A stretch of 64,000 nucleotides of DNA from Rugalucina vietnamica (lineage: Eukaryota > Mollusca > Bivalvia > Lucinida > Lucinidae): contig OZ024869.1 of assembly GCA_964017185.1 (NCBI GenBank), positions 72,418,008 to 72,482,007 of the forward strand, in the 5' to 3' direction. Shown one piece after another: positions 35,309 to 61,089 of this stretch. Both the position numbers and the translations under genes were made by a program. Numbering within the stretch: the first letter of the stretch is position 1; the number at the start of each line of letters is the position of its first letter. The notes below the pieces were generated by a model. It had not been told where the DNA came from. It ran no database searches and saw only the letters and a list, made by a program, of their open reading frames with translations.

Positions 35309-36557
35309 GCGGGGCCTTTTCCCAGTATCCATTGCTTTGGTCCTGTGCCTGTCATGTGTCCAGTCACAACCAGGAGGGGGAGGACCACGTGGGGGACCAC
35401 CCGGGCCACCACCACCCCGAGAGAACGCTGCCGGACCACCACGAGAGGGACCCGGACCCCCACCAAAACAGTTTGACGCGTCCAAGGGAGCTTCGGGACC
35501 ACGCGATGGACCTGCAGGCGGTCCGCCAGCGGCGAAACCAGATGCCTCAGGCAATCAGAGCTCAAACCCCTGGCAAGATCTGCTTACCAGAATGATGGAC
35601 CTACTCAGTACCGGAATGGGCCCGAAAAATCTCAGTAAAGTTCCAGCAGAAATCGTCGATCCTAAGCAACCCCCAAGTGCAGGCCCAGGGCCTTCCGACG
35701 TACCACCACCACCAAAACCCTTAAATGTAGCGAAGAAACCGGTTATAAAAGACTGTTTCTGGGAAGGCCGATATTATTCTCCAGGGAGTGACATTATTCG
35801 AGGTCAGCATGACCGTTGGTGTTACGTTACGTATTGCGATTCTCAGGGTAAAATCCAGTTTTGGGATGACTACAATTGTAAGCCAAATTCTATGAGAGAC
35901 ACCAGTTCTCACAATACTGGTAGGGAGAGATGGGTACCCCCGGGTCAGAGACCTTCGGGCGGACAACCACAGAAGGAGGGATGTAACCACAAGGGACAGT
36001 GGTACGATGCTAACCAGGATATTTCAAGCCATCGGGTTGGAGACAGATGTTATGGGTCTTATTGTAGCAGGGATTCACAAGTCATCAACTGGGAGGATTG
36101 GTGTACCAATGTGAACAACGTGGGTGCCACGCCTAGCCCGGGACGCGCACAAAATCAGATGGAGCAAGGAGGTGGTGCACAGGGCCAGGGTCAGACTCAG
36201 GGTCAGGGACAAGGCCGGGGCCAGAACCAGGGAATGGGTATGGATAGGCAGCAATTTCAAGGTCGTGGTCAAGGGCAAGGCCAGGGACAAGGTCAAGCGC
36301 AAGGTCAAAGGTCATTTCGACGCAAGCAACCAACCATGGGTTGCTTTCACGGCGGAAGGCAATACCAACCTAATGAGGATGTGATTTCAGGTCAAATAGG
36401 AGACTTATGTTATGGTTATTATTGTGAAGGGGACAATGTTTTTGTACATTGGGAAGATACTTGTCAGCACCAGAACATTGTACCAATGGATCAATCTACG
36501 ACGCCCCCACCCGTGCCTTCAACTACAGCTGGTTTCTGGGGTGGTTTCATGGGCTAA
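35309..36557 (+). CDS. secreted four-Cys-domain protein A (3 domains), last exon
   Basis: Unnamed family. The exon follows a TATGCTTTCAG acceptor; its first residues (FPVSIALVLCLSCVQS) read as the hydrophobic part of a signal peptide, so the start codon is in an upstream exon not found. Order: signal peptide, Gly/Pro-rich stretch, a helix-like segment (WQDLLTRMMDLLS), then three four-Cys domains at about 35754-35882, 35982-36104 and 36342-36464. Cys spacing is 21-4-13, 21-4-12 and 21-4-12. Between domains 2 and 3 is a Gly-Gln repeat (about 36177-36320). Each domain resembles the first part of a von Willebrand type C domain with most cysteines missing. It is likely extracellular; function unknown. 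The stop codon directly abuts a family H element. Two other frames are also open over the GC-rich 5' part, but only this one has the domains. Confidence 0.85.
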
Positions 36558-36559
36558 TT

Positions 36560-36793
36560 GAGCATGTGCGTGACAAAACCAACAATTTGGGTTCCGACCA
36601 TGTCCGACACAAACTGAGCTGTACAGTCACAGAAGATGGTTAGAGGCTGGAAATTTTGGATTTAGAAGGAAGAGGAATTCTACTATCCGTGTAGGGGAAA
36701 CAAAGGCGCTGATCAGCTTCGCAGTTACTGCGAAGCTGATCTGCGCCTTTGTTTTCGCCTATGATTGTTGGTTTTCCCATGCGGCGGCTCAAT
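36560..36793 (+). mobile_element. family H hairpin element abutting gene A's stop codon
   Basis: TTGAGCATGTGCGTGACAAAACC begins 0-2 bases after the TAA stop at 36555-36557; GGCGGCTCAA ends it. The central palindrome (36699-36755) is the cleanest in the window, with GCGCTGATCAGCTTCGCAG pairing to its complement. It must form the first part of gene A's 3' UTR. Confidence 0.9.
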
Positions 36794-38823
36794 TAAAATG
36801 ACATTCACTGCATAGTTCTGTCACGAATTTATTAAATGTGTATTTTCATAATTGCAAGACGCTTAAAATATGAGGTTTTTCGTTTAGGACAGCTATAAAT
36901 GGACAATTTTCAGAAGACAAGCTGTTCATTTATGGACTTCATATAGACACATTGATATGATCGACGATTGCAACACTTTTGGTGACGTGAATGCGTGACA
37001 AAAACAACAAAAATAGCGATAACATCAATATATAGAATCAGTTAAAAGAACACCATAGCAACTTTCTGGTATCTTCCATACTCAGTGTGTTTTGGAAGTC
37101 ACTAGCAACTGTATATTAATACTCATGAGTTCATCTATGCCATCCTTCCATCGAGTCATTACTTCCAGCCAGTTTCACAAAGCTGGCATCGAGGGTCCAC
37201 CGTATTTAACTACTGTTTTTCTATACTGAACACAAAATAAACCGAAATGTCGCAAATTTTCTTTTTATACACACATCCTCTTAATCTATAAAAGCAAACT
37301 ACAATCTACGGCTTACCAAAGAGGTTCATTCTTTATACGGTATCATACCGTTTCGCTGCATTGCACCCGTGCACGGTGTGGAAGCTAAAGCGATCTGTAA
37401 GAACTGTTTTAATAGCGAATTCGTCGACCTTTGGCTTGTGACGGGCGTTGTCCAGTTGCAAATTTACCGATGTTTTGCTAGTAACGGACGTCTGCCATTA
37501 CATTCTTGTTTTGTGTTTGTGTTGTTTTTGCGGTTCAGTCAACAGTTATGATTATAACGCGACGTTTCCTCTATTCTGTGGTACTTCTGCCTGATAAAAC
37601 CCAACAGTATACTTGAATACCCCTCCATCACACCCAATTAAACAACTAATATTTATTATATGAGTGAAGCGCTTTTCATTTTAAGGCACATAACTTCTAA
37701 GAGGTTAACCAGTACTCAGGTGACCAGTTATTCGGTTAGCAGAACAAAGCATCTTTTGTTCTTAGAACCGATGGCGGCGATCTAGGTTCTTGCATTCTTG
37801 ACTCTGTTTATGTTGTTATGAACCACTGCAGAAGATGAGGGTGAGGTTAGGGCCCTGTAAAACCGGTTTAAGCCCGCCCCCAGTAATTTTATATTACTGA
37901 TCGTTCCAAGTCGACACTTCTGTTGTGGTTCTGATTGTTTTGTGTTTTGGAGTCGATTTTTTGTGCTGTTTGAGCATTATGTACGTTTTCATATTTAAGT
38001 TCAGTTCAGGTTACTGAGTGGTCGCCTATTGGGGAATAGCTGCTCACTCGGCTTACTATATTATGTTTTCTTTGTATAAGTTTTAAGTGTCATTTTAGTT
38101 TTTTCCCACCCCTCGGTTTATGGAGTGGGAATTTCTTTCTGATTGCGCCATTTCCTTATCATTGCCTACTTGTACCTTTTTTATGTTCGAAGTAGAGACT
38201 GTTCACAGTGAAGTGGCATAATGTTTAACGATATTCGCCAATAATACTAAAACCTTTTTGCATTCTGGGTCCTGCTGTTCAAAATTAACGATGTCGTAAG
38301 TTAACAATTCGACAAATACACAGTTATTTTTGTTGATAAAATGTGTCAATTTTTATCATTGCAAAGGATTCTCACATTTTATCAACAAAAATTACAATGT
38401 ACTTGCTTAGCTTTACAGTCCAAAGTGACCATACCGTCATCCAACTAAATTCGTTCATACTGATCTAATAGGTGGACATTGTTTGTTTTGTTATTTATTA
38501 CAAGTTGTAGTGCATGTGTTATTAAGTCAAGGGTGTGCTTGTGATGGTGTTATCGAAGTCATGATAGTAGTTCCAATAAAGTAATTAAAATCTATCATTA
38601 TTTGATGTCATACGTACCATAGGCCAATAAATGATCATATTGAAGTAGCATGTTGAACTGCCTAAAATTTGTATACACCCGAACCGGTTCTGTATAGCAA
38701 AGTAGCTACCCGAATTCAGGATACATTTGATATATCCATAAAAGTTTCATCAGGAACTGTTTTTTCGATCAAACTGGAACTAATCTTTGTCGGATATTAC
38801 ATCATAGATTTCAGAAATGATGT
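36794..38823. other. non-coding stretch with SINE-like fragments
   Basis: A degenerate S2-type copy (CAGTCAACAGTTATG, GCGACGTTTCCTC, AGGTTAACCAGTACTCAGGTG) spans about 37530-37790. A block at 38098-38185 (TTTTTTCCCACC, GGAGTGGGAATTTCTTTCTG, TGCCTACTTGTACC) recurs in reverse at 63910-64000. A 19-bp-arm hairpin lies at 38327-38391. No gene is supported. Confidence 0.55.
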
Positions 38824-39059
38824 GAGCCATCGCATGAGATAGCCAACAATTTGGGTTTCCGACCAGGTCCTGCACAAATCAAGCTGTACAGTCAGGGAAT
38901 AAAGCAAGAAGCTTGAAACTTTGGATATAAATTGAAGAGGAATTGTACTATCCGTGTGGCGAAAACAAATGCGCCGATCAGCTGTGCAGCTACTGCACAG
39001 CTGATCTGCGTCTTTGTTTTTGCATATGCAAATCGTTGGTTTTCTCATGCGAAGGCTCG
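38824..39059 (+). mobile_element. family H hairpin element upstream of GPCR 2
   Basis: GAGCCATCGCATGAGATAGCC begins and CGAAGGCTC ends it, about 120 bp before the receptor's start codon. The stem pairs GATCAGCTGTGCAG with CTGCACAGCTGATC, sharing the TGTGCAG variant with the copy at 12805 rather than TTCGCAG. Confidence 0.85.
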
Positions 39060-39181
39060 AGTAATAACAATGTAGAATATAGAATATCTCTATTATCTTC
39101 ACGTTTATAAGTCGCCTCTACTCTGAGCATGGCAACAGTTTTAGTTTATTCTAAAGAAAAGCGCATCTAGTGAATCTGAAA

Positions 39182-40369
39182 ATGGCGAACGACACCGACT
39201 ACGAATATGAAGACGAGTTTCTACGTATGACACCGGAAGTTCTAATTCCATCAGCAATTGGAATGTCTTTGCTTGCTTCGTTGGCAATAGCAGGAAACCT
39301 CATGACGGTGATCGCCTACGTGAGGGACAGGCGTCTGCACACAGTTTATGACTTCTATATTTTCAATTTAGCAATAGCTGATTTGTTGATTGGAAGCTTT
39401 AGCATGCCGTTTTATGCCTGGTACACGCTCGACGAATTCACTTGGCATCTTGGAAGAACATTCTGCAAAGCATGGCTGGTGGTGGACTTTACGCTCTGTT
39501 TTGAGACCATTCTTCTGATGTTACTTCTCAGCTCGGACAGACTTCTTATGTTGTGTCTAGGACCAGTTTACTCTTCAAAAGTCACGTTAAGAAAAGCATA
39601 TGTTCTTGTAGCTATTTCATGGATTGTGTCTTTTCTGTTATATGGACCGTCCATAATCGGCTGGGACGCTTGGCATGGACATTCGATTGTCGAACACATG
39701 GATTGTGACGTTGAATTCGCCCACAGTTACGCATACACCACTATTTCAGCAATGTTGGAGTTTGTTCTACCCTTCGTTATTCTGACTATACTTAACGCTG
39801 TTATCTATTTTAAGATACGAAAACGGCTTAAGATCAGTAATATACCAAGACCTTCTCCAGAGGGCGCTTCTGTAAGCATCCTCCCCGACCCGGATCAAAG
39901 CCAAAGGATTCAAGATGGCGATTCTGTAACTTCAGCAACCAAAACAAACACTCCAAGAATAAGATTCAGGGACAGACTATCTGTGGCTAACTTCAACATT
40001 GGGAGTCTCGGTAAAAAGATACTAAAGCCATCTAGCAGGTTCAGAACTCGCAAAGATCGCGCATCGTCGAGGGTGAAACGGGAGTCAAAATCAGCGCGTT
40101 TCTTGGCTATACTTGTGATCGTGTTTCTTCTTTGTTGGACGCCATATACTGTCATTACAATTGTCATATCGTTCTGTCAGTATGACTGTGTGGCAATCAG
40201 CTGGTATGAGTCCACCAACTGGATTTTGTGGCTGAAGTCGGCCATCAACCCGTTTCTGTACGCCACGAACAGTTCCAGATATCGCTATAATTTTAGGCAG
40301 TTCATGTTTTGTTTGAAGAAAGATGTTGCTGTTGTATCCATCGAAACAACCGTTCAGACGGTGGGCTAA
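39182..40369 (+). CDS. class A GPCR, histamine H3-like/aminergic, DRL variant
   Basis: Rhodopsin-class receptor of 395 aa, intronless over the coding region. The ATG at 39182 (AAAATGGCG) is chosen; the frame is open four codons further with no ATG. Landmarks: N39, D67 in TM2, C95, D102 in WLVVDF (amine-contact position), W147, C175 in the second extracellular loop, P197, CWTP (318-321) and NPFLY (356-360). The DRY motif reads D119-R120-L121; tyrosine is replaced by leucine, which could alter activation or basal activity. The third intracellular loop is about 85 residues, far shorter than in the paralogue at 22.5 kb, with which it shares WLVVD, KSAINPFLY and NSSRY. A polyadenylation signal AATAAA follows at 40376. 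Ligand unknown; H3 or muscarinic-like labels are by resemblance only. Confidence 0.92.
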   Translation: MANDTDYEYEDEFLRMTPEVLIPSAIGMSLLASLAIAGNLMTVIAYVRDRRLHTVYDFYIFNLAIADLLIGSFSMPFYAWYTLDEFTWHLGRTFCKAWLVVDFTLCFETILLMLLLSSDRLLMLCLGPVYSSKVTLRKAYVLVAISWIVSFLLYGPSIIGWDAWHGHSIVEHMDCDVEFAHSYAYTTISAMLEFVLPFVILTILNAVIYFKIRKRLKISNIPRPSPEGASVSILPDPDQSQRIQDGDSVTSATKTNTPRIRFRDRLSVANFNIGSLGKKILKPSSRFRTRKDRASSRVKRESKSARFLAILVIVFLLCWTPYTVITIVISFCQYDCVAISWYESTNWILWLKSAINPFLYATNSSRYRYNFRQFMFCLKKDVAVVSIETTVQTVG

Positions 40370-40375
40370 TCAAGC

Positions 40376-40381
40376 AATAAA
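40376..40381 (+). terminator. possible polyadenylation signal of GPCR 2
   Basis: AATAAA lies 7 bases after the stop codon. That would give a very short 3' UTR, so a later site may also be used. Confidence 0.4.
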
Positions 40382-40569
40382 ATGCGATTAGCGGTCATGG
40401 GGTAATAATGTACGTTCATTTAATATAAACATACGAGTATATACGAATATCATCATATGCCCAACACAAAGCCACCAGAACAAATGTGATTCGATAGACA
40501 ATTTAAAATTAAATTGAGAATGTTATGCACATAGTTCTTTTAAATACAAACAGACATAGGTTCTAACTA

Positions 40570-40850
40570 AATTCCATCATGAAAACATGTCCATGTAATG
40601 TATACCCCCGTGAACCCCACTTTTATATAGCAAAACTGGGGTATGCAGGGGTATACCTGTTTTTCTTATTTTTGCTCCAAAACATAGATTGTGGGTACTC
40701 GTTAGAACCGCCTCGGCGAGGCGGTTCTAACGTGTACCCACAATCTATGTTTTGAGCAAAAATAAGAAAAATATCAAAAATTTTCAATTTCTAAAGCTCA
40801 AAAAATCTCTGTTTATTGCATGGGCAAATTTTCGTAATGAATGGGACCCT
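40570..40850. repeat. palindromic family P, full copy
   Basis: Left part: CATCATGAAAACATGTCC, GTATACCCCCGTGAACCCC, CTGGGGTATGCAGGGGTATACC and TTTTTCTTATTTTTGCTCC. The palindrome 40681-40753 pairs AACATAGATTGTGGGTAC with GTACCCACAATCTATGTT around CCGCCTCGGCGAGGCGG. Right part: AAAAATAAGAAAAATATC and TGCATGGGCAAATTTTCGTAA. No ORF. Confidence 0.9.
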
Positions 40851-42128
40851 TACATGTAGGTACGATGAGTTCAAGTATCTGATAGTAGTGTTGCACGATT
40901 GACGTTAACCTAGAGATAACCGATATAGTGGACTAAGAGACACTGTTATGAAAAAAAATCAATTTTAATAGTGGAGCGGCTTAGTGTGAGATTTTGAGGA
41001 AATACTTCAGTTGATGATACAAGCACGAAATTTTCACCATATGTTCTTTACATGACAAACATTAAATTCAGATCCCTGGCCACTTGAAATTTCGCCACTT
41101 TCAAGATGGCTGCCAAAAACAAAATGGCCGACAGTTGTGAATGTTGTACATGTAGTAAATTGCTCATATCTTAGGTTCTTTTCATCATAGAACAACAATA
41201 TTGATACCAAAATGAAGCCAATGATTGCTCTTTCAAATATAGTTCCAATATGCAAATTACCTAATTTGCATATTTATGAATATTAATGAGATTTTACTTT
41301 TTTGGTTAAAAATTGAGAAAAAAATAACATCCTATTTTCTGAACAATGTAAAATGTTAAATGAAATGGATAACTGTGGCTTTGATATTGCTAGACCATAA
41401 ATTATCATAAATTGACAAAATTTAATTAGCATGTGCATGAATATTCATTTTAGAATATTTCAAGACTTTGTATGTCCTTACCTATCAGTTTGTTTTAGAA
41501 AGTTCATACAGTAAATTACTCATATCTTTGGTCCTGTTCATAATAGAACAACAATATTGATACCAAAATGAAGCTAAATGATTGTTATTTCAAACAGAGT
41601 TCAAATATGCGAATTACCTCATTTGCATATATATGAATATAAATGAGATTTTTGTTTTGCTAAAAACTTGAGAAAAAAATCACATCTTATTCACTGAACG
41701 ATGTAAAATGTTCATGTTGTAGATTGTCTATAAATATCACATTCATTGTAAAATAAATGCCATTAATATAAGATCTATGCCATATTTTTGGAGGTCTGCA
41801 GTTACCAATTACTTTCCGGTATACACCAGTTACTATTTTCTGCCTGGTCTCATTGTTGAGACTATCTTGGTGATAAATAAAAAAAATACACCCTGTAATG
41901 TTTTTTGGCATATGACTCAATATGAGGTACTATCGCCTCCTTGACCTAATCTTCAAAAGTTTTGATGCTTCGGGTTAGACTACTGTGACCATGTGTATTT
42001 GGAGAAAGCAATTAGCTAAGAACTTGCAAGTATGTTGTCGCCCATTCTGGTATGCTTGAAATGAGCCGTACTGGCAATTATAAATTATGATTTTTTTACT
42101 TAACTGATTGATGTGTTTATCAAATACA

Positions 42129-43345
42129 AGAGAAGCACTTGGGCACTAACAAGCTGCTCTACATGGCCGTCATTGATCTGAAGAAAGCAGTTGACCGAGC
42201 ACTGAGGGATGTAATGACTTATGATATAACACTGTCGAGTCCATGGAAGAACTACCTGTTAAGTTGAAGACTTGGACAGCAGAGATGGTTAGGAAAGTTC
42301 TTTGAGTGAACATGGGGAAGACAAAGATCATAGTCTCTGGCCTCAAATTGAACCTTCTGAAAACTGAAAAAAATCTGGAAAGAATCCCTGTGGCTTCTGT
42401 CAGACAGGTGTAGGAAGAAATGCTGTCTTCTGTGGTGGATGCTTGTACTGGATCTACAAGAAATGCAGTGGGATCAAAGGCTCCTTGCGCCGTGATCCTA
42501 ATTTCAGCTGTGCTGGCTGCCGAGGAAAGGCGCATCCCATAGATGGAAGGCTAGTGAAGGAGGTTCTAGTTGATGACAAAAAAGTTGAGGATGTACCAGA
42601 GTTCAGGGAGACATGCTTTCTGTTGGCGGAGGTTGTGAACTGGCTGCAGGTCACGCACTACAAATCGGCTTAGGGCAAGTTCCGCCAACTACTCCTCTCC
42701 ACACCAGTGGCAATATGCCACGTTTGACCAGAGGTCGAGTGTATTCAACTTACGTACTGCCACATGCAGCAGAAACATGGGCAATGACTGGCTACACTTT
42801 GTCGCCTGCAGCGCAATGACCATGCAATGATGTACTGGATCTGTAATTTCAAGGCGAATGATGAAGTAAGCTCAGACTCCCTTCTCTCAAAGCTTGGACT
42901 TCAGGATATAGATGTAGTTCTTCGCTCCAGCAAGGTGAGATGGTATGGACATGTAGAGCGCATTAAAGGCTTTATTTTTCAAATACGCAAGCTAAATGTA
43001 GTTGCACAGAATAGATCCGGCAAGCTAAGGAAAACATGGGATGAAGTGTTGTTGGACGACGAAAAGAAGGTTAGAATGGATACTGCCGATCATAGAATCT
43101 CTCAGAGTGGAGAGGTCGTCTAAGAATAAAAATAAAACTGAGATCCTTTAAGAGCAGTGAGTATATTTGTGAGAAAGGTGATGGGCCATACCGTGGTTTC
43201 GGCTATTCAAGCCCCTTCAGTTATTAGAATTGGCAACATGGAGCCAAAGAAAATCGCTGTGATTTTGCAACTTTGAACAGAAGGAGACTTGTCAAACAAG
43301 TCCAACCCTCAGATGAGGACCAAGGACTATAAAAAGGATATGATG
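42129..43345 (+). pseudogene. degenerate non-LTR retrotransposon (LINE) reverse-transcriptase fragment
   Basis: Translation in shifting frames gives YMAVIDLKKAVDRA (reverse-transcriptase motif A, F/YxDxxxAFD type), then VNMGKTKIIVSG, a Cys-rich segment (CGFCQTGVG, FCGGC, KKCSGIKG) and LSKLGLQDIDVVLRSSKVRW and KLNVVAQNRSGKLRKTWDEV near the C-terminal end. Stops and frameshifts separate these blocks and the N-terminal half is missing. A 150-bp dispersed repeat (about 43125-43275) interrupts the end. The copy cannot encode a working enzyme. Confidence 0.85.
43125..43275 (+). mobile_element. dispersed repeat (family S3), copy inside the LINE
   Basis: AAACTGAGATCCTTTAAGAGCAG, GGGCCATACCGTGGTTTCGG and CATGGAG(C/T)CAAA blocks recur at 48838-48990 and, reversed, at 57190-57297. 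The LINE's C-terminal reading resumes after it, so it inserted later. Confidence 0.7.
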
Positions 43346-44769: not shown

Positions 44770-44930
44770 TCATTTAAGCCCGGCGTCCTTTTTATGGGAC
44801 ATAGGCAAATAGTATAGCCCCAGATGTGTCGCCGCAAAATGACACCTGAAGCCCCCAAAAAGTGGACTCACCAAATAATAATTATGGGTGAATTCATTCA
44901 TCATTAATGGGTTAAGGACTGACATGTACA
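44770..44930. repeat. AGCCCCAGATG hairpin family, degenerate copy
   Basis: AGTATAGCCCCAGATGTGTCGCCGC matches one arm of the hairpin at 25808-25876; the other arm has decayed. ACGGATGGATT-like text seen beside the other copies is replaced by AT-rich sequence. Confidence 0.5.
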
Positions 44931-45039
44931 TTGTATTCTAATTCATTATAGCAAGTTATGTGAACAATCGTTTTCTTCTGTTTGTCAATAAATGCAAATA
45001 TTACAAACACTTTAAAACACGTTAAAATTGCTGTTAGGC

Positions 45040-46145: not shown

Positions 46146-46211
<66 letters not shown>

Positions 46212-47329: not shown

Positions 47330-48106
47330 ATGCTGCAAAGAATAGTGTCAACATTTTGTCTGGTGCTGTTATTCGCTCAGTCTGTGGTTTTAGTGGGGTC
47401 CACGAGCAAAGGAAAAGCCTTATCTAAAGTACTTATTGAATTACTCCAAGCCAAAGGAGTCGATAGATTTCGTATTGCGGGGGAGGCAACCACGCCTCCT
47501 GCGACATCTACCATACCCACCACCTTGCTGCAAGGTTGTCATTACGAAGGCCGCCTTTACCCATTAAACAAAGATATTTACAAAGGGGAGGATAGGGAAA
47601 GTAATTGGTGTTATGGTGCTATCTGCGATCAACACGGACAAGTATTACACTGGGATGATTTCAACTGTTTCCCTACGTCCACGACCACTGAATCAACAAC
47701 ACCAACAACACCAGAGAGGACAACAACTACGCCGCCACCTCCCGAAACAACACCACCCCTGCCCCCAGGTTGTGAGTACAACGGTCAACATTACGCTCCC
47801 AACTCAGAAATTTACAATGGAGAGGATAGGGGGAGTAACTGGTGTTATGGTGCGTTCTGTGATCAAGATGGACAAGTTTTACATTGGGACGATTTCAACT
47901 GTTTCCCCACCACAACCATACCAACCACGACATCACCAATGACAAGTTCAAGTACCGTATCCCCTACAACACCCAACAACAACAACAACAATAATAACAG
48001 CAACAATAACAATGGCAACAACAATAACAATGGCAACAACAATAACAATGACAACAGCATCAACAACTGGTTTTTGAAATTATGGAATAATATTTTCAAT
48101 GGCTAG
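47330..48106 (+). CDS. secreted four-Cys-domain protein B (2 domains, Asn-rich tail)
   Basis: 258 aa. The ATG at 47330 follows a CATTTCAG splice acceptor directly, so a non-coding first exon is likely. Signal peptide at residues 1 to about 24 (VLLFAQSVVLVG), then an amphipathic stretch (LSKVLIELLQAKGVDRF, 31-47). Domain 1 has C70, C94, C99, C113; domain 2 has C148, C172, C177, C191; both read GEDR-x-SNWCYG and VLHWDDFNCFP. A Thr/Pro linker separates them. The tail is a poly-Asn/Gly tract (about 216-245) from an (AAC)n-type repeat, ending in the hydrophobic NNWFLKLWNNIFNG. The two domains are more alike than those of the other genes, suggesting an internal duplication or conversion. No known full-length family is recognised; likely extracellular. 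Confidence 0.9.
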   Translation: MLQRIVSTFCLVLLFAQSVVLVGSTSKGKALSKVLIELLQAKGVDRFRIAGEATTPPATSTIPTTLLQGCHYEGRLYPLNKDIYKGEDRESNWCYGAICDQHGQVLHWDDFNCFPTSTTTESTTPTTPERTTTTPPPPETTPPLPPGCEYNGQHYAPNSEIYNGEDRGSNWCYGAFCDQDGQVLHWDDFNCFPTTTIPTTTSPMTSSSTVSPTTPNNNNNNNNSNNNNGNNNNNGNNNNNDNSINNWFLKLWNNIFNG

Positions 48107-50226: not shown

Positions 50227-50760
50227 ATGACATTTCTGACTTATTTGTGCATCTTCTTCCTTACTCTGACCATCTGTTCAGCGTCAGAGGTTGAGTATAA
50301 AACCATCAAGGATGCAGAACCCCGCCCACCCGGGTGCTACTACAAGGATGCCTACTACAGTCCCAACTCTGAAATACTTAGCGTGGAGGATAAGGACGAA
50401 GACTTGTGCTATGGCTTAATCTGTAACGATCAGGGGGATATCATACACTGGGATGACTTCGATTGTTTTACCAGGGAGGACCGCTCGGACGATTCACTGC
50501 CGCCCTCAAGACCGAAACGGTACGGCAGACACCAGCCGCATCACCCTAGACCAACGCCCAGGCCCACGAAGCCGCCCGGCTGTGAGCTTGATGGTAAATT
50601 TTACATGCCCGGGGAGGAGATTTCGAAAGGAGTAGATGGTAACTGGTGTTATGGTATGTTTTGTGGCGAGGACGGGCACCTGATAGCCTGGGATAATTGG
50701 GACTGTTTCCCGTCAAAGAAAACGACTACAACGGGTCCCCCACCACTGGAGGGGCACTGA
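50227..50760 (+). CDS. secreted four-Cys-domain protein C (2 domains)
   Basis: 177 aa from the ATG at 50227. A TTTTTTCTAG acceptor at 50210 leaves 16 bases of 5' UTR in this exon, the same arrangement as in genes B and D. Signal peptide 1-19 (FLTLTICSAS at its end). Domain 1: C37, C61, C66, C80; domain 2: C119, C141, C146, C160. The linker is Arg/His/Pro-rich (PKRYGRHQPHHPRPTPRP) rather than Thr-rich, and includes a basic KR that could be cleaved. It lacks the post-signal amphipathic segment seen in genes A, B, D and F and has no basic C-terminal tail. Likely secreted; function unknown. Confidence 0.9.
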   Translation: MTFLTYLCIFFLTLTICSASEVEYKTIKDAEPRPPGCYYKDAYYSPNSEILSVEDKDEDLCYGLICNDQGDIIHWDDFDCFTREDRSDDSLPPSRPKRYGRHQPHHPRPTPRPTKPPGCELDGKFYMPGEEISKGVDGNWCYGMFCGEDGHLIAWDNWDCFPSKKTTTTGPPPLEGH

Positions 50761-50795
50761 TAGTTTGCCATATTCTGTTTGTGAAAGCATTGTGA

Positions 50796-50801
50796 AATAA
50801 A
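50796..50801 (+). terminator. polyadenylation signal of gene C
   Basis: AATAAA lies 36 bases after the stop codon, a plausible distance for a short 3' UTR. Confidence 0.6.
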
Positions 50802-50804
50802 GAA

Positions 50805-51711: not shown

Positions 51712-51743
51712 CTTTAGCTTGACGTATCTGTTAACAAACAGTA

Positions 51744-52394
51744 ATGAAGCACTATACAATCCTGCACCTGTTTGTCCTGGTCCTGGTGCTTCATCTTGCT
51801 TCCAGTAACACAAACACGGTAGACTTTAGATCTATATTGGACCTTTTGAAGAAAATCAAAGGAATGACTCTAAAACAACTCATGACATTGCTGTCAAACC
51901 GTCAACCGACGACCACTACGAGCACACCAACCCCCAGTACTACTCCGGAGACCACAACACCAACAACCATGCCACCTGGATGTATCCACAACGGACAATT
52001 CTATACACCTAACTCCGAAATATCCAGGATCGAAGATTATACGAATAATCGGTGCCATGGTCTATACTGCGATCACCATAGTCAGATCGTACCCTGGGAT
52101 CAACCGAACTGTTTTACAACCACACCGCCAACTACGACTCCAAGGGGTTGTTATCATAACGGAAAACACTATCCCCCGGGAGAGATATCCCGGGGTGAAG
52201 ACCGGGGTAGTAATTGGTGTTGGGGTTACACATGTGGTGCAGACGGATATGTTATGACCTGGGATAACTTCACTTGTTTCGGAACTACCCCACATACTAC
52301 TACAACACCTCCATGGACTACCCCCGAGTCACCTTCATCTGGCTCCAAGAGAAAATTGGATAGGAACTTTTTCAGAAAATTGTTCAGACGATGA
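51744..52394 (+). CDS. secreted four-Cys-domain protein D (2 domains, basic tail)
   Basis: 216 aa from the ATG at 51744, 32 bases after a TTTCAG acceptor. Signal peptide 1-21 (VLVLVLHLASS). An amphipathic, Lys/Leu-rich segment follows (FRSILDLLKKIKG and LKQLMTLLSNR, 28-53), then a Thr/Pro linker. Domain 1: C80, C104, C109, C123; domain 2: C136, C159, C164, C178, reading GEDRGSNWCWG and WDNFTCF. After a second Thr/Pro linker the C-terminus is strongly basic and amphipathic (KRKLDRNFFRKLFRR). The last 430 coding bases and about 380 bases downstream recur twice in tandem (52395-54020). Likely secreted; the ends resemble membrane- or polyanion-binding peptides, which is only an inference. Confidence 0.92.
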   Translation: MKHYTILHLFVLVLVLHLASSNTNTVDFRSILDLLKKIKGMTLKQLMTLLSNRQPTTTTSTPTPSTTPETTTPTTMPPGCIHNGQFYTPNSEISRIEDYTNNRCHGLYCDHHSQIVPWDQPNCFTTTPPTTTPRGCYHNGKHYPPGEISRGEDRGSNWCWGYTCGADGYVMTWDNFTCFGTTPHTTTTPPWTTPESPSSGSKRKLDRNFFRKLFRR

Positions 52395-52722
52395 GCTTTG
52401 CATGTTTATGTTAATGTGTTGTTTTTAAATGCGGCGCAAAATATATAACCCGTACTATTTTATGATCTATTGAAATATAACTCCGATTTTGGCAGTTACA
52501 GAAATAGGACACGTTGGTCCATACAGGTGCTTCTCAAAATTATTATGGTTAGCGATTTTTCTCATAATTATTTACATACTCCCCTGTGTGATAAACATGA
52601 CAGCCATCCACTTGATTTTGCAGATATCTGTTGTTTAATTGCATGGCATTGTTAAACGATTACCATGCTTAAACGGAGGAAAGATTTGGATTGTCCAGTT
52701 GCCCAAAATATTTTTATGAACC

Positions 52723-53223
52723 ATGATAAAAATTGGATACTATAATTGTATAATAGAAACAGCAAGTTTTGAAGTCGAAGTATTGTCACGTGATATGGTG
52801 TCACCTGGATGTATCCACAATGGACAGTTCTATACACCTAACTCAGAGATATCCAGGATCGAGGATTATGCGAATAATCGTTGCCATGGTCTATACTGCG
52901 ATCACCATAGTCAGATCGTACCCTGGGATCAACCGAACTGTTTTACAACCACACCGCCAACTACGACTCCAAGAGGTTGTTATCATAACGGACAACACTA
53001 TCACCCGGGAGAGATATCCCGGGGTGAAGACCGGGGTAGTAATTGCTGTTGGGGTTACACATGTGATGCAGACGGATATGTTATGACCTGGGATAACTTC
53101 ACTTGTTTCGGAACTACCCCGCATACTACTACAACACCTCCATGGACTACCCCCGAGTCACCTTCATCTGGCTCCAAGAGAAAATTGGATAGGAACTTTT
53201 TCAGAAAATTGTTCAGACGATGA
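52723..53223 (+). CDS. 5'-truncated tandem copy of gene D (E), possibly non-functional
   Basis: From the codon before Pro-Gly-Cys (about 52800) to the stop, this frame is nearly identical to gene D: two four-Cys domains, the Thr/Pro linker and the same basic C-terminus. The signal peptide, helix and first linker are absent, replaced by spacer-derived residues (MIKIGYYNCIIETASF...). In domain 2 GSNWCW became GSNCCW, giving a fifth cysteine and removing the conserved Trp. No splice acceptor is evident just before the homology. It could be a pseudogene, or an alternative last exon of gene D. The frame is intact, so decay is recent. Confidence 0.5.
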   Translation: MIKIGYYNCIIETASFEVEVLSRDMVSPGCIHNGQFYTPNSEISRIEDYANNRCHGLYCDHHSQIVPWDQPNCFTTTPPTTTPRGCYHNGQHYHPGEISRGEDRGSNCCWGYTCDADGYVMTWDNFTCFGTTPHTTTTPPWTTPESPSSGSKRKLDRNFFRKLFRR

Positions 53224-53604
53224 GCTTTGCATGTTTATGTTAATGTGTTGTTTTTAAATGCGGCGCAAAATATATAACCTGTATCTCTTTTATGATCTAT
53301 TGAAATTTAACTCCGATTTTGGCAGTTACAGATATAGAACACGTTGGTCCATACAGGTGCTTCTCAAAATTATTATGGTTAGCGATTTTTCTCATAATTA
53401 TTTACATACCCCAGTGTGATAAACAGGGCGGCCATCCGCTTGATTTTGCAGATATCAAGGCATGGTTAAACGATTATCATTCTTAAACGGAGGAAAGATT
53501 CAGATTGGCCAGTTGCCCAAAATATTTTTATGAACCATGATAAAATTGGATAATATATAGAAACAGCAAGTTTTGAAGTCGAAGTCTTGTCACGTGATAT
53601 AGTG

Positions 53605-54020
53605 TCACCTGGATGTATCCACAACGGTTAGTTCTAAACACCTAACTCCGAGATATCCAGGATTGAGGATTATACAAATAACCGGTGTCATGGCCTATAC
53701 TGCGACCACCATAGTCAGATCGTACCGTGGGATCAACCGAACTGTTTTACAACCACACTACAGCCCGAAGGTTGTTATCATCACGGTCAATTCTATCCCC
53801 CGGGACATATTCCGGGGTGAAGACAGGGTAGTATTTGGTGTTGGGGTTACATATGTGGTACTGACGGCTATGTTATGGTCTGGGATAACTTCACTTGTTT
53901 CGGCACTACACCGCATACTACAACAACACCTCCATGGACAACCCCTGAGTCGCCTTCATCTGGTTCCAAGAGAAAATTGGATAGGAAATTTTCAGAAAAT
54001 TGTTCAAGCGATAAGCGGCG
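53605..54020 (+). pseudogene. decayed third copy of the gene D 3' part
   Basis: The homology begins GTGTCACCTGGATGTATCCAC, as in copy E. Stops occur within the first domain (GGT-TAG-TTC-TAA), a short deletion shifts the frame near ATATTCCGGGGTG, and the basic tail is disrupted (TTCAAGCGATAAGCGG). Spacer sequence upstream also matches that before copy E. It is a dead copy. Confidence 0.85.
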
Positions 54021-54399
54021 CAAACAAAATAATCTGTATCTGTATAAATTGTACTTTTATTATCTATAATTGTAACATACTCGCAACTCCGAGTTTGGCA
54101 CAATTCCGATTCTTGTACACTGACTTACTGGTACATGTACACGTGCTTATGACGGCTTAAGCTGAAACCGAGGTCCATATGTCACATATCGTTCAGGCTG
54201 TATTTATTGATTAGAAGTCATATCCATTTTAATTGTAGATCTACATTTTAGTGGTATGTACATGTACACAGTATAGGTAAAATACTTTGACCGTGCCGCT
54301 TGATAGCACGCCATAACATATCCATGCGAAGATTTCATGATGAGAAATAGGTAATGTCAACATTCACGTGTTTATTTTTGACTGCGTATTGTCCCGTAT
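54021..54399. other. non-coding stretch
   Basis: No gene or clear repeat is visible between the tandem array and the R1 repeats. Confidence 0.5.
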
Positions 54400-54850
54400 T
54401 GTCCCGCCACGCTCACATATGGTAAAAAACCCTCAAAAATCTTCTTCTCCAGAACCGGTGGGCCGGTTTCCACGAAACTTCGTGTGTAGCATTCGGTACT
54501 CCAGCCCATCATAGTCTGATAAAATGATGACCCTGTGATGACCTTGGCCTATTTTACGACAAGGTCAATTTTGGAACCATAGGCTTTTTACATGGGAAAG
54601 GCGAAACAATGGATATTTTGGAAACTATTGCAGCCCGAGATTTGGAAGCTGCTAGATGAATCAATGAATGTATGTAATTAATTAAGGTCAAGTTCATTTC
54701 TTGACTCTGACCCAAGGTCATTGAAATATCAAAATTGTGTCACAATTTCAAAGATCTTCTTCTCTGTAACCGCTTGGCTGATCAAGTTGAATTTTTATGC
54801 GGAGCCTCCTTGAATAGTGGCATTGAAAGGCCTAGGGAGTTGAAGGCCTG
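54400..54850 (+). repeat. R1 repeat, 5'-truncated copy
   Basis: It starts inside the element (CCACGCTCACATATGGTAAA, CTTCTTCTCCAGAACCGGTG) and carries GATGACCTTGGCCTATTTTACG and CAAAGATCTTCTTCTCTG blocks. Confidence 0.8.
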
Positions 54851-55096
54851 ATTTCGGCCTCAGATTAACTCCTTATATTTCAGTAAATGTCAATGTCATA
54901 TCTAAGATGTTATGCTGTCTAAGCAACCCAAATTTAGAAATCTCGCAAAGTTGTTTTTTTTTCCAGAAAATGGAGGATTTTAGATGCCACTACCGCCAAT
55001 AATAATTAAGTATCGGTTTTCACAAAAAGGTTTGCAAAATATACAGAAATAATGCTCTAGTTCTATTTTTTTTTTTCGTTTTTCTTTTCTTTTTGA

Positions 55097-56134
55097 CTCA
55101 GCTGAGCCGTTAGGCTCACAAGGTGAGCTTACAGTATACCCATGCTCCGTCGTCCGTCGTCGTCGCTCACAATGTTTAAACATCTCCTCAGAAACCCCTG
55201 GGCCAATCAAAGCCAAACTTTATATGGAGCATCATAAGGAAAGGGGAACCAAATTTTGTATAAATGGTCCAGGCCACACGACCAAGATAGCCGCCATGGC
55301 TATAAACAGCAAAAACCTTTAAAATCTTCTTCTCCAGAACCAGAAAGCCTATGGCTTTGAAACTTGGCATGAAGCATAAGGCAATGGAGCTTTACAAAGT
55401 TTGTATAAATCTGAATAATGACCCTTGGATGACCTTGACCTATATTGCGGCAAGGTTACTTTTGGAAGCATAGGCTTTTACACGAGAAAAGGCGTAAACA
55501 ATGGATATTTTGGAAACTATTGCAGCCTGAGACTTGAAAGTTGCTTGATGCAGACAACTAATGAAGTCAATGAAGGTATGTGACTAATTAAGATCAAAGT
55601 CATTTCTTGACCATGACCGAAGGTCATTGAAATATTAAAATTAAGTCACACTGTCAAAGATCATCTTCTCTGAAACCGCTTGGCCGATCAAGTTTAAATT
55701 TTATGTGGAGCCTCTTCGGTAGTGCCATTGAAATTTTGTTTGCGATACCTTGGCCACATGGTCAAGATGGTCGCCACGCCCATATATGGTAAAACCCTAA
55801 AAAAATGTTCTTTTCCAGAACCGGTGGGCCGATTTCCACGAAACTCGGTATGTAGTATCGGGGACTCCAGCCCATCATAGTTTGATCAAATAATCAACCT
55901 TGGCCTATTTTACGACAAGGTAATTTGGAAACTGGCTTTTTCATGGAAAAAGTGAAAAGAATAGATTTTTTTGGAAACTATTGCAACCTGAGACCTGAAA
56001 CTTGGCAGGTGTGGACAACTTATGAAGTCAATAAAAGTGTGTGAGTATTAAAGGTCAAGGTTATTTCATGATGACTAAATTCTCCAAGATTAGGCTTCAG
56101 GTGAGCGTTTTCATGACTAATGGTCCTCTGGTTA
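55097..56134 (+). repeat. R1 repeat, near-full copy
   Basis: Start hairpin CAGCTGAGCCGTTAGGCTC and AAGGTGAGCTTACAG; two internal modules; end CTTCAGGTGAGCG and ATGGTCCTCTGGTT. It is directly followed by the next copy, so R1 copies are stacked head to tail here. Confidence 0.85.
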
Positions 56135-56574
56135 GCTCACTTGAGCTGAAGCCTCAAAGTGAGCTTACAGTATAGGCATGATCCGGAGTCCGTACGTCGT
56201 CGTCCATCGTCAATCGTCGTCCGTCCGTCGTCCACAATTTCCAATTTCAAAGATCTTCTCTGAAACCGCCTGGCTGATCAAAATGAATTTTTATATGGAA
56301 CCTTTATGGGTTAAGGGAATGAAACTTTGTTCATGGGATCTTGGTCACATGATCAAGATGGCCGCCACACCCATATATGATAGAACCCTTCAAAAATCTT
56401 TTTCTCCAGAAGTAGTGGGCTTATTTCTTCGTAACTTGGTGTGTAGCATTGGGTACTACAGCCCATCATAGTTTATTCAAATGATGACCGTGTGATGAAA
56501 TTGACCTATTTTACGGCAAGGTCAATATTGGAAGCATAGGCTTTTATATGAAAAAAAAAAAAAAAAAAAAAAAA
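56133..56574 (+). repeat. R1 repeat, truncated copy ending in a poly-A run
   Basis: AGCTCACTTGAGCTGAAGCC and GTGAGCTTACAGTATAGG start the copy. It ends within the module at GCTTTTATATG followed by 24 A (56551-56574). Confidence 0.8.
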
Positions 56575-57189
56575 CGTGTGGATGGTCCACACTCACCATG
56601 CTTATGTAATGTGCGACTGTGTACTGTGTGCTTATTCACTACTGCCTGAGATCTAGGAAAATGACAGTGGTCATGAGTGGATGAGTGGTGATCTTGAAAA
56701 CAATGGCCACGATAACAAAACACTGTGAACCATCTACACTAATGTGTACAATCACGATTTCAAACTTAAAATTCTATTATGGGGATGTCGTTATATTATG
56801 GATGCAAGCCGCCGGACATGAATCTGCATAAACTGAAATTAAGATTTTTATCAAAATTTATTCATCCGATATGGCACATACAAATGCAACCGAAATATAC
56901 GAAATCGAAACATTTCTAAACTCAATACATGAATAAAGAACAACCATGGACTATAATAAGGTACGTAGCATCGTTATAAATCATATTTTTGTGAATACGA
57001 CTTCAGTTTGGTCATGCTATATTATAAAGTGCAGTTCTGGTTTTAGTTTTTCTAAGGAGTACAAAAACTTTATAGGCGCATGTGTCCATTATTGTTCATG
57101 TTTGATTCAGCTAAGAGACGTATAATTGAGATTTTCGCGGACATGGATTCTCATAGTTTTGATTGCAAAGTATGAGTTTTGAATGCAAA
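56575..57189. other. non-coding stretch
   Basis: No gene or repeat is clear between the poly-A run and the S3 fragment. Confidence 0.5.
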
Positions 57190-57297
57190 GTATGACAAAA
57201 TGTACAGGGTCACTGAAGAGGCTTAAGTAGCCGAAACCGCGGTACGGCTCATCATCTTTCCCATTAATATGTTCACTGCTCTTGAGGCTTTATTTTT
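57190..57297 (-). mobile_element. family S3 fragment, reverse
   Basis: CACTGAAGAGGCTTAAGTAGCC, CGAAACCGCGGTACGG and TTCACTGCTCTTGAGG are the complement of blocks at 48850-48935. Confidence 0.65.
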
Positions 57298-58561
57298 AGC
57301 TCACCTGAGCCGAAGGCTCACAGGTGAGCTTATAGGATAGGCAGGCATCCGTCGTCCGTCGTCGTCCGTCCACAATTTCAAAGAAGAATATTTCTGAAGC
57401 TAGTAGGCCGATCTTGATCAAATTTAATGTGAACCATAATTGGGTTGGGGGATTGATGGTATTAGGTTTTGGAGCAGATTGTATCAAAATTGTGGTTTCC
57501 ATGGCAACAGATAGGTCCCATAGACTTACAATGGGAAAAACTAAAAAAATCTTCTCTGAAACCACTAGGCCCACAGCTTTGATATTTGGTATGTAGCAAT
57601 GGCTAATGGTCCTCTACATAAATTGTGCCATTCATGCCCCTGGGGTCAAATTTGGCCACGCCCCGGGGGGTCGATAGTCTCCATAGACTTACTATGGGAA
57701 AAAAATCATTATGTGGCAATGGCTAATGGTCCTCTACATAAATTGTGCCAGCCATGCCCCTGGGGTCAAATTTGGCCACTCCCCGGGGGTGGATAGTTTC
57801 CATAGACTTACAATTGGAAAAACTAAAAAAATCTTCTTCTCTGAAACCACTAGGCCCACAGCTTTGATATTTGGAATGTAGCAATGGCTAATAGTCCTCT
57901 ACATAAATTGTGCCATGGGGTCAAATTTAGCCACGCCCCAGGGGTCGATAGTCTCCATAGACTATTAGACTTACTATGGGAAAAAAAAATAAAAAAAATT
58001 CTTCTCTGAAACCACAGGGCCCACAGCTTTGATATTTTGTATGTGGCAATGGCTAATGGTCCTCTACATAAATTGTGCCAATCATGCCCCTGGGGTCAAA
58101 TTTGGCCACGCCCCGGGGGTCGATATTCTCCATAGACCTACAATAGGAAAAAACTAAAAAAATCTTCTTCTCTGAAACCACAGGGCACACAGCTTTGATA
58201 TTTTGTATGTGGCAATGGCTAATGGTCCTCTACATAAATTGTGCCAGCCATGCCCCTGGGGTAAAATTTGGCCACGCCCCGGGGGTAGATAGTCTCCATA
58301 GACTTACAATGGGAAAAACTAAAAGAATCTTCTTCTCTGAAACCAAAAGGCCCAGAGCTTCTATATTTTGTATGTTGCAATGTTTGGTAGTCCCCATTAT
58401 AAATTGTGCCAGTCATGCCCCTGGGTCAAATTTGGCCATGCCCCGGGGGTCAATAGTGTCCATGCATAGACTTTCATTGGTCGATTCTGAATTAATTTAA
58501 ATCTCATGAGCTTACAATGTGATAATCTCTCAGGTGAGCTACAGGACCAATGGTCCTCTAG
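57298..58561 (+). repeat. R1-type repeat with internal 165-bp tandem array
   Basis: AGCTCACCTGAGCCGAAGGC starts the element; CAGGTGAGCTACAGG and ACCAATGGTCCTCTAG end it. Inside (57595-58480) a unit carrying GCAATGGCTAATGGTCCTC, AATTGTGCCA, GCCCCTGGGGTCAAATTTGG and GCCACGCCCCGGGGG recurs six times with period about 165 bp (one unit shortened to 120). No intact ORF. Confidence 0.85.
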
Positions 58562-58639
58562 TTTTTTTATCCCATCCACGGTCAAGCTTGACTATCAAAA
58601 TAATTATAATTTTATCAGCCGAGCATGAGATTAAAAGAA

Positions 58640-58790
58640 TCTATGATGGGGTTGAAGCCGAGACAAGGAAATCTCAGGTAAGTTTACAGATTATTCAAGT
58701 CTCATCCGAGGCTCAGCCGAAGATGAGACTCGAATAATCTGAAAACGAGCCTGAGATTTCCGTGTTGAGGCCTGAACACCATCATTGATT
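58640..58790. repeat. imperfect inverted repeat
   Basis: ATGATGGGGTTGAAGCCGAG, GGAAATCTCAGG and AGATTATTCAAGTCTCATC on the left are mirrored by GATGAGACTCGAATAATCT, CCTGAGATTTCC and AACACCATCAT on the right. The centre is CGAGGCTCAGCCGAAG. Confidence 0.8.
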
Positions 58791-59379
58791 ATTTTTCTCA
58801 CCCATCACTGAAAGCATTTTGATTCTGAATAGGCTACAAGTGCTGTTCAGGCAGCCATTATGTTTTACATGAAACAATATGCAAATTAACCAATGGAAAA
58901 ATAAAAAAAATAATTTTGTATATGAACTAACCTTACAAAAAATCAATCAGCATTTTGTTTTGTGCATAAAATTCTCAGCAAAATTAAATTTTGAGATTTT
59001 TATCAAAGCAGCAGACTACAGTTACTCCTGAAATTAACATCTCAAAGTTTATTTTTGTCACTGACAGTTGACACCTAGCTTATAGTTTCCTTATATGGAA
59101 GTACACATGAAGATGTACATGTACATTTCTATTGGCTAAATACAGAAATGATTTGCATTTTGAGACAGCAAAAATCTACTAGTATATACTGAGACAGAAA
59201 TATCTCAGACAGGCACACTAAGGGATATGCTTGTCTGATGGGTGAGAAATAACTAGGTCATCGTTAGAACTTCTTGGATGATCCTCGTACTATGTAAATG
59301 TATAAATGGGAAAGAAAGAATAGTGGGACCAGGAATCAAAGCAAATCATTGGGATAGCATGTCCGTAAAATTTATACCC
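58791..59379. other. non-coding stretch
   Basis: AT-rich; no gene or clear repeat is seen. Confidence 0.5.
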
Positions 59380-59630
59380 TCTAATACCCCAATTTTATAT
59401 AGTAAAATTGGGGTTTACAGGGGTAAACATATTTTTCTAATTTTTGATCCAAAACATAAATTTTGGGTACTCGTTAGAACCGCCTCGACGAGGCGGTTCT
59501 AAAGTGTACCCACAATCAATGTTTTGAGCAAAAATTAAAAAAAATATCATTTTTTTTTTCTAATAAAATTTTCAAGTTTTGCAGCTGCAAAGATATCTGT
59601 ATATTGTATGGGCTTGTTTTCGTAATCTAA
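59380..59630. repeat. palindromic family P, copy
   Basis: ATACCCCAATTTTATATAG, AATTGGGGTTTACAGGGG and AACATAAATTTTGGGTACTC lead into the palindrome CCGCCTCGACGAGGCGG; the right arm reads GTGTACCCACAATCAATGTT. This copy is more diverged between arms than the next. Confidence 0.85.
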
Positions 59631-59689
59631 GATTCCAACAAAGACACCAGGCGGGAAAGAACAAACATCACAATACAAATCATTTTTTC

Positions 59690-59975
59690 CGACCATCATG
59701 AAAACATATCCGTGTAATGTATACCCCCTTGAACCCCACTTTTATATAGCAATACTGGGGTATGCAGGGGTATACATATTTTTCTTATTTTTGCTCCAAA
59801 ACATAGATTGTGGGTACTCGTTAGAACCGCCTCGCCGAGGCGGTTCTAACGTGTACCCACAATCTATGTTTTAGCAAAAATAAGAAAAATATCAAGAATT
59901 TTCAGCTGAGAATTTTCAATTTTTAAAGCTCAAAAAATCTCTGTATATTGCATGGGCAAGTTTTCGTAATGAATA
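59690..59975. repeat. palindromic family P, copy adjacent to the previous one
   Basis: It has the full arrangement seen at 40.57-40.85 kb, from CATCATGAAAACATATCC to GCATGGGCAAGTTTTCG. The core is CCGCCTCGCCGAGGCGG with near-perfect arms. Two copies thus sit about 60 bp apart in the same orientation. Confidence 0.9.
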
Positions 59976-60492
59976 CACTTGAAGAGCAGGATGATTAGCT
60001 CTTTCCCAACGAGGTAGCCATTCGGCTAGTCTCATCTAAACCCAACGACAACAAGCACAACGGGGAGAAAGCCTAACAATATAAACTGTAAAATGAAAAA
60101 TCTGTAGCCTTGATATCTTTTTTCTTTTAAATATTAATTGTTGTGATTTCCTTTGTTGATTAATATTGTGTGGTTTTAGTTCAGATTGTGCCAAGAATTG
60201 GCCATCGCTTATAAATTTTTCCGGTGCAGTTTCTGGTCCACTTAGATCTTATGATTTTTTCCATGTTGTTTAACCGTGAAAGAAGTGGCGCCCATGTTTC
60301 CAGCATAAATTCAACGCATTGCTTGATATTTTAGGAACCTATGTACTGTGTCACCATGTGTAAGTTGGGGTTGGATTAAAGAGGGATGTAATGACTGGTT
60401 TAAGTCCATCAATGAAACAATGTAACGCCGGATGGGTCGACTGGACGGTGTTACTTGCCAAAGCTCAGTAACGTATATACTCACATTTTCAG
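59976..60492. other. non-coding stretch upstream of gene F
   Basis: No repeat or gene is clear. The first exon of gene F, with its start codon, should lie here or further left; no ATG followed by a donor in the right phase could be chosen. Confidence 0.5.
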
Positions 60493-61089
60493 ATCACCCA
60501 ACATGTCGTGACAATCGTTCTAGTCTTCGTCTTTGCCCATTATCCGGGAGCCGTGGTTGGAAAATCATCTCTAGCTAGGATTCTTACCGGACTACTGGAG
60601 GACAGAAATCTCGACAGACTGAGGAATAGGATGGTACCCCCTACAACGACACCACCAATTCCCCCAGGGTGTCGATACAACAACCGCTTTTACCCTCCAA
60701 ACTCCGAGATTGAGAGCGGAGAGGATCGAGCAAGAAATTGGTGCTTTGGCACAATCTGTAATGAACATGGGCAAGTTATACAATGGGATGAGTTTAACTG
60801 CTTTCCAACGACAACCCCACCGACAACCCGACCGCCGGGCTGTTTTCACCATGGTCATTTCTATCCCCCGGGCAAGATATCTGAGGGAGAGGACAGGGGG
60901 AGTAACTGGTGTTGGGGATATATTTGTGATGTGAGCGGTCATGTTCTGACTTGGGATAACTTCAACTGTTTTCCTACGACAACCCCACCACCGACTCCAC
61001 CCGAAGAATCCACGACCCCGCCAGTGCCCACAACCCCTGCTGCTAGAAGAAAGAAAAAGCAACTGCGTGAACTCTTTCTGAACTTATGA
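60493..61089 (+). CDS. secreted four-Cys-domain protein F (2 domains, basic tail), last exon
   Basis: The exon follows CACATTTTCAG; its frame is open from the first base (ITQHVVTIVLVFVFAHYPG), reading as a signal peptide that lacks its start, so the ATG is in an earlier exon (an ATG at 60503 is out of frame). 198 residues are visible. After the signal comes an amphipathic segment (SLARILTGLLEDRNLDRLR), a Thr/Pro linker, domain 1 (C60, C84, C89, C103, counted from the exon start), domain 2 (C117, C140, C145, C159; GEDRGSNWCWG), and a basic C-terminus (RRKKKQLRELFLNL). The domain 2 spacing of 22 and its WCWGY match domain 2 of gene D, so D and F descend from a two-domain ancestor. Function unknown; likely secreted. 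Confidence 0.88.
   Translation: MTQHVVTIVLVFVFAHYPGAVVGKSSLARILTGLLEDRNLDRLRNRMVPPTTTPPIPPGCRYNNRFYPPNSEIESGEDRARNWCFGTICNEHGQVIQWDEFNCFPTTTPPTTRPPGCFHHGHFYPPGKISEGEDRGSNWCWGYICDVSGHVLTWDNFNCFPTTTPPPTPPEESTTPPVPTTPAARRKKKQLRELFLNL

Follow-up and report, generated by a model that had tools for sequence, protein, structure and literature searches.

A bivalve gene family encoding chains of a four-cysteine domain that resembles mucin E modules

E modules occur in gel-forming mucins, FCGBP and VWF (for example, in the MUC5AC E3 region, MUC2 E3 and VWF E'), where they belong to VWD-C8-TIL-E assemblies of giant polymers. According to excerpts of a cryo-EM paper, the E3 module has been solved for MUC2 and is too flexible for modelling in MUC5AC, the Pro/Thr/Ser-rich (PTS) and CysD segments of MUC5AC come after its D3 region, and CysD domains interrupt PTS stretches and engage in homotypic contacts (PMC11933400). 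Here we describe a gene family of the lucinid bivalve Rugalucina vietnamica in which beads of an E-like domain alternate with Thr/Pro stretches. A cluster of the family lies in a stretch of 64,000 nucleotides (hereafter, the window; C1:72418008-72482007, contig OZ024869.1) of a 1.09-Gb assembly of 47 contigs (GCA_964017185.1). An earlier note on the window had proposed a distinct domain of secreted proteins, either derived from VWC or convergent with it.

Several other small modules invite comparison. The SVWC proteins of arthropods have eight cysteines. Fibronectin type I (FnI; Pfam Fn1 and PF23003) is, like the domain described here, a small beta module with four cysteines. VWC subdomain 1 forms a similar small sheet; excerpts of a VWC paper give the domain ten cysteines and bond the first cysteine of subdomain 1 to the fourth (PMC6270503). 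In the adhesive of a flatworm, a protein with vWD, C8, TIL and vWC domains occurs beside proteins that are lysine-rich or have many predicted O-glycosylation motifs (PMC9229212), which offers a loose parallel, by analogy only.

A four-cysteine domain in a gene cluster

Seven copies of the family, all on the + strand, occupy the region from 35.3 to 61.1 kb of the window: five intact genes, one copy truncated at its 5' end and one broken copy. The domain has the pattern C-x(21-23)-C-x4-C-x(12-13)-C with the motifs GxxY, ED..NWC.G and W[DE]..xC. Copies and pattern agree with the earlier note, but we count 11 domains in the intact genes (3+2+2+2+2) where the note had ten. Two more are in the truncated copy, the second with an extra cysteine (NCCWG). 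A six-frame scan of the window with the looser pattern C-x18-26-C-x4-C-x10-16-C gave 12 matches, all on the + strand and all in family copies (the 11 intact domains and the first domain of the truncated copy); in 60 mononucleotide shuffles, the same scan matched 0.23 times on average and never more than 2 times. When the 13 open domains were aligned, six columns were invariant, namely the four cysteines, one Tyr and one Trp. CxxC pairs are absent from the window, as had been claimed, but the CxxC motif YCTKC occurs in one domain of a paralogue at C1:96.66 Mb.

Sequence and fold place the domain near E modules

We searched 177,635 PDB sequences with a wide profile built from 28 family domains and found that MUC5AC ranked first (E 0.0067). 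MUC5AC, FCGBP, MUC2 or VWF, with several constructs each, accounted for 16 of the 18 rows (VWF rows at E 0.57-6.1), and an antibody and a cytochrome subunit made up the rest. In the MUC5AC module that matched, the cysteines are spaced C-x22-C-x4-C-x12-C, which is the spacing type of the family (21-23, 4, 12-13), so the cysteine pattern is not unprecedented. Other E modules among the PDB matches listed have a C-x2/x3-C-x-C cluster, whereas the family has four cysteines, mostly with C-x4-C. We placed the other MUC5AC sub-matches on E modules by what we take to be the domain order. The best MUC5AC match sits after TIL3, in the E3 region, as judged from cysteine numbers in excerpts of the cryo-EM paper (PMC11933400). 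Going by residue numbers, E3 proper is probably what matched in MUC2 (1186-1238), and the next module what matched best in MUC5AC; the idea that the structural and sequence matches are the same mucin module is thus probably wrong.

In shuffle tests, cysteines were fixed and the other residues shuffled, with 1000 shuffles per target and n as hmmsearch reported. With the 28-domain model, no shuffle reached the real score of MUC5AC (0/999), two FCGBP modules (0/987 and 0/980) or another MUC5AC module (0/993). The FnI scores were reached by 42/994 and 13/987 shuffles, and those of VWC subdomain 1 by 470/998 (COL2A) and by 626/999 and 121/1000 (NEL). A model built from window domains only gave 0 shuffles for MUC5AC and both FCGBP modules, 8/989 for the other MUC5AC module, 172/978 and 148/974 for FnI, and 330/994, 886/996 and 43/999 for VWC. 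Mucin and FCGBP modules were chosen as targets because they had matched, FnI and VWC modules for other reasons, and the correction for searching is carried by the E-value, not by the shuffles. Searched against the PDB, the window-only profile returned two chance-like matches only, the E-module match emerging with the 28-domain profile alone. The CxxC-variant domain, searched by itself, gave ten rows, of which eight were antibody-like and the others FCGBP (E 1.5) and PARP1 (E 9.5).

The second domain of gene 5 was modelled by AlphaFold2. The best structural matches included VWC, FnI and VWF/mucin E modules, each at a low Z, the top VIA-align Z being 4.2 for the fibronectin type I structure 3mql. 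The suggestion of a VWC origin or convergence had therefore pointed to the right fold neighbourhood, although the closest sequence relatives are the mucin and FCGBP E modules, and VWC subdomain 1 scores like shuffles. Membership of FnI by sequence is not supported, as scores are near those of shuffles; FnI also has C-x-C between cysteines 2 and 3, whereas the family has x4 in 11/11 intact window domains and x2, x4 or x8 in relatives. Fn1_2 (PF23003) reached 13.5 bits against a cut-off of 27, and a genome search with PF23003 was uninformative, its controls likewise giving no match.

The domain might instead be a degenerate VWC, that is, subdomain 1 after loss of subdomain 2 and its cysteines, still binding growth factors or matrix as VWC does. 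We regard this as the least probable of the accounts considered here: besides the shuffle-like scores, the 31 matches listed for the Pfam VWC model in the genome (150/169 candidates scored) all lie away from family loci, VWC (PF00093) was not listed for whole proteins or single domains in the Pfam scans, and cysteines 2 and 3 are separated by x4 instead of C-x-C. Each domain has four cysteines, and the window genes have no cysteine-rich second part like that of VWC. Profiles, cysteine counts and shuffle tests led us to reject membership of VWC or SVWC.

No Pfam family clearly claims the domain, which agrees with the earlier note's description of it as distinct, although the MUC5AC E-type module shares its spacing. 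The six window family proteins all stayed below Pfam cut-offs, the best E for a single domain was 0.013, and the 28 single domains gave one NCBIfam match at E 0.11 and nothing else. Only the relative L018 (C1:54.75 Mb), 1 of 13 family proteins scanned, passed a cut-off, that of DUF1496 (PF07383), with 25.8 versus 20.2 bits in two stretches; the better one covers profile positions 8-30 of 53 and ends at the second cysteine, which could reflect a shared hairpin or chance. Among single domains, DUF1496 matched 1/28 at E 0.014. The matched MUC5AC module, taken as a 43-residue fragment, reached no Pfam cut-off either. A search of titles and abstract starts in the open literature found none naming this four-cysteine family, which is no proof of absence.

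VWD, C8 and TIL had no match listed for the six window family proteins and seven relatives scanned, a scan that lay outside the predicted first exons. We therefore call the domain an E-like module and not the E domain of a VWD-C8-TIL-E assembly; it is best read as an E-like FnI-fold bead without the usual VWD-TIL partners. A domain absent from Pfam, though a human mucin fragment has the same spacing, thereby gains a candidate kinship and fold, and the finding suggests that E-type modules are able to work without VWD assemblies. The predicted fold is not new; the apparent novelty is that short mucin-like proteins use it in the form of free-standing beads.

Architecture of the genes

All copies below are on the + strand, and signal peptides were judged by eye, without a predictor. 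The main exon of gene 1 (35309..36557), preceded by ...tttcag and open to its stop, contains a signal-peptide end, Gly/Gln/Pro-rich spacers and three domains, at 35754..35879 (x21-x4-x13), 35982..36104 (x21-x4-x12, WEDWC) and 36342..36464 (x21-x4-x12, WEDTC). Gene 2 (47330..48106), with ttcag immediately 5' of its ATG, encodes a signal peptide, a short N region, two domains on Thr/Pro linkers (47537..47668 and 47771..47902, both x23-x4-x13; the second was a query of the genome search), a poly-Asn stretch and an aromatic C-terminal tail. Gene 3 (50227..50760) encodes a signal peptide and two domains (50335..50466, x23-x4-x13; 50581..50706, x21-x4-x13) with a His/Pro/Arg-rich linker. In gene 4 (51744..52394), a signal peptide and an N region that is helical in a low-confidence structure model are followed by Thr/Pro linkers with two domains (51981..52112, x23-x4-x13; 52149..52277, x22-x4-x13) and a cationic C-terminal tail. 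The main exon of gene 5 (60493..61089), preceded by ...ttttcag, has a signal-peptide end, two domains on Thr/Pro linkers (60670..60801, x23-x4-x13; 60841..60969, x22-x4-x13) and a basic C-terminal tail. The truncated copy of gene 4 (52723..53223), homologous from about 52801, has two domains and no signal peptide that we could see, and the broken copy of gene 4 (53611..53901) has two decayed domains, one with TAG and TAA and the other with TGA.

The signal peptides, from which we infer secretion, are complete in genes 2, 3 and 4. The main exons of genes 1 and 5 begin inside an apparent signal peptide, so that each gene is expected to have a first coding exon farther upstream. AG stands directly 5' of the ATG in 10 of the 14 ATG-bearing copies examined (gene 2 and the relatives L009, L013, L041, L043, L044, L045, L046, L060 and L065) and is absent there in genes 3 and 4, L004 and L022, as if, to judge from the letters, an intron of the 5' untranslated region ended at that point.

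The linkers between domains had been described as Thr/Pro. This is true of genes 2, 4 and 5, in which T+S+P make up 75-79% of linker residues, less so of gene 3 (42%), and not of gene 1 (18%), whose linkers are Gly/Gln/Pro-rich. The Thr/Pro segments are probably O-glycosylated, on a composition found in genes 2, 4 and 5 and not in gene 1. Net charge is negative in all 11 intact window domains (-2 to -10), and the tails of genes 1 to 5 carry -1, 0, +1, +6 and +3. We considered amphipathic N-terminal segments as a common device and rejected them for genes 2, 4 and 5, the signal being significant for gene 1 only; among C-terminal tails put to the same test against shuffles, that of gene 2 alone stands out (41/5000 shuffles).

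Relatives elsewhere in the genome

We searched the genome with protein queries from window and paralogue domains; the counts are lower bounds and include broken copies. The search found 14 loci beyond the seven window copies, giving at least 21 loci, 19 of them on C1. The outside loci (L numbers) are at C1:54.72 and 54.75 Mb, C1:72.50-72.61 Mb (six, on the minus strand just past the window end), C1:79.93, 79.95 and 80.00 Mb, C1:96.66 Mb and C8:47.59 Mb (two). Weak matches at C8:41.39 Mb (E 3.2) and on C16 (E 0.035, interrupted by stops) were left out of the count, as was a group of repeats at E > 2. The family appears to be locally expanded. By pattern, its members carry one to five beads in short proteins.

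Half of the outside relatives (7/14: L013, L022, L043, L044, L045, L046 and L060) have long lysine-rich tails, unlike E-module proteins. Lysine makes up 17-38% of the last 90 residues in these seven, and six of them have a net charge of +13 to +31 beyond the last domain that could be recognised, where the value for L046 takes in a decayed domain; L060 has +7. In L045 (C1:72.551 Mb) and L060 (C1:72.564 Mb), the lysine-rich block is followed by a Glu/Asp run, forming a charge-separated polyampholyte end. Net charge after the last domain is -3 in L009, 0 in L004 and L014, +3 in L018, +6 in L024 and +2 in L041. L009 and L013 bridge two branches of the family, with a first domain 57 and 46% identical to the window query and a second of the lysine-tail type. 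A further copy, L064/L065 (C1:72.502 Mb), has an in-frame TGA and a lysine-rich tail in another frame, and looks broken.

Cysteine positions and predicted disulfides

The spacing between the second and third cysteines (C2 and C3) of relatives is mostly x4, with x8 in the first domains of L009, L013, L022, L043 and L044 and the second domains of L022 and L043, and x2 in a single L004 domain. For the x8 class, x8+x9 comes to the same total as x4+x13 in the main class, as though C3 were sliding while the distance from C2 to C4 stays constant; after C3, the other x4 domains of relatives vary from x10 to x16. The third domain of L046 has lost C1 and C3 together and retained C2 and C4, a single event that suggests C1-C3 and C2-C4 pairing. 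Two internal disulfides with this pairing are most likely in each bead, and we liken them to the bonding reported for VWC subdomain 1.

In the five intact window genes, every cysteine outside a domain falls among the first 17 residues read; in L004, L022, L044 and L060, the same is true of the first 18. Elsewhere, such cysteines occur in L009 (residue 163), L014 (66 and 70), L018 (32 and 37, with an uncertain start), L024 (12, in a fragment), L043 (four, in an irregular domain) and L046 (in the domain without C1 and C3). Because all cysteines beyond the signal peptide lie within beads in the five intact genes, the proteins probably do not assemble, as MUC2 and VWF do, by disulfide polymerisation.

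Possible roles of the proteins

The reading that we favour, and to which we give an even chance, is that these are short secreted mucin-like proteins, with E-like FnI-fold beads on Thr/Pro segments, used as a mucus, glue or secreted-matrix layer; this role, and any tissue in which it is played, we infer. A signal peptide would be followed by beads strung on flexible Thr/Pro segments and then by a short tail, each bead being a free-standing E-like module held by its two internal disulfides. Assembly would more likely be non-covalent, through charge as well as contacts of the beads, with the mostly acidic beads contacting the basic tails of neighbouring chains, or the tails contacting acidic glycans or surfaces, and such contacts could hold the layer together. 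Mucin CysD domains would resemble the beads in function and not by membership, and no CysD model is among the Pfam matches listed.

A related possibility, bolder and more doubtful, is that the family is an undescribed group of animal mini-mucins. The E-type module would here be a lone exchangeable bead that radiated mainly on one chromosome, with C3 sliding (x2, x4, x8) and tails passing from near neutral to lysine-rich to lysine-then-glutamate, yielding a tunable, non-covalently cross-linked secreted gel or glue. If the assembly idea is true, the cluster is a natural series varying bead number, disulfide position and tail charge, and it bears on the question of gel formation or adhesion by small glycoproteins that lack disulfide polymerisation.

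The low-complexity spacers of gene 1, L014 and L018, which are Gly/Gln/Pro-rich or repeated, could also belong to a matrix of shell or another biomineral, in which such segments, or Lys-rich ones, and cysteine beads would be occluded in mineral. Acidic beads with Lys-rich tails also fit the general type of matrix proteins. With no named matrix family among the Pfam matches listed, we consider this reading unlikely.

Tandem duplication with broken copies, together with cationic tails (+6 in gene 4, +3 in gene 5 and up to +31 in relatives), would also suit innate-immune effectors or recognition proteins like arthropod SVWC, the tails acting on microbes and the beads binding them. One of the 28 domains matched SVWC (PF15430) at E 0.046, with none listed for 13 whole proteins, but this match is weak and single, the domain has four cysteines instead of the eight of SVWC, and cationic tails are lacking in genes 1, 2 and 3. 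Nine of 78 domain pairs stayed under the limit of synonymous differences set for printing. Among these nine, the ratio of nonsynonymous to synonymous change (dN/dS) is 0.07-0.15 for five intact-gene pairs, which look conserved and not diversifying, and 0.34 and 0.42 for two pairs with gene 1; these values are rough, as every printed dS between intact domains, including those of the five pairs, exceeds 1. An immune function is quite improbable, less likely than a biomineral matrix.

In the last two of the nine pairs, the two domains of gene 4 against the truncated copy, dN/dS is 0.07 and 1.04, and over 420 bases dS is 0.09 and dN 0.018. The two copies (51744-53223) diverge unevenly, with dS 0.23 in domain 1 versus 0.03 in domain 2, which may reflect gene conversion or chance.

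Neighbouring features

An intronless rhodopsin-family G-protein-coupled receptor gene lies at 39170-40369 (+; Pfam 7tm_1, 2.5e-54), and a second was recognised by eye at 22465-24447 (-). AAA ATPase exons resembling SPATA5/AFG2 were seen by eye in the list of open reading frames at 8614-10368 and about 12429-12635 (+). An interspersed repeat with a recurring peptide occurs at 36710-36742, 38797-39102, 10929-11327 and other positions, and a hairpin, perfect by eye, lies near 36725.
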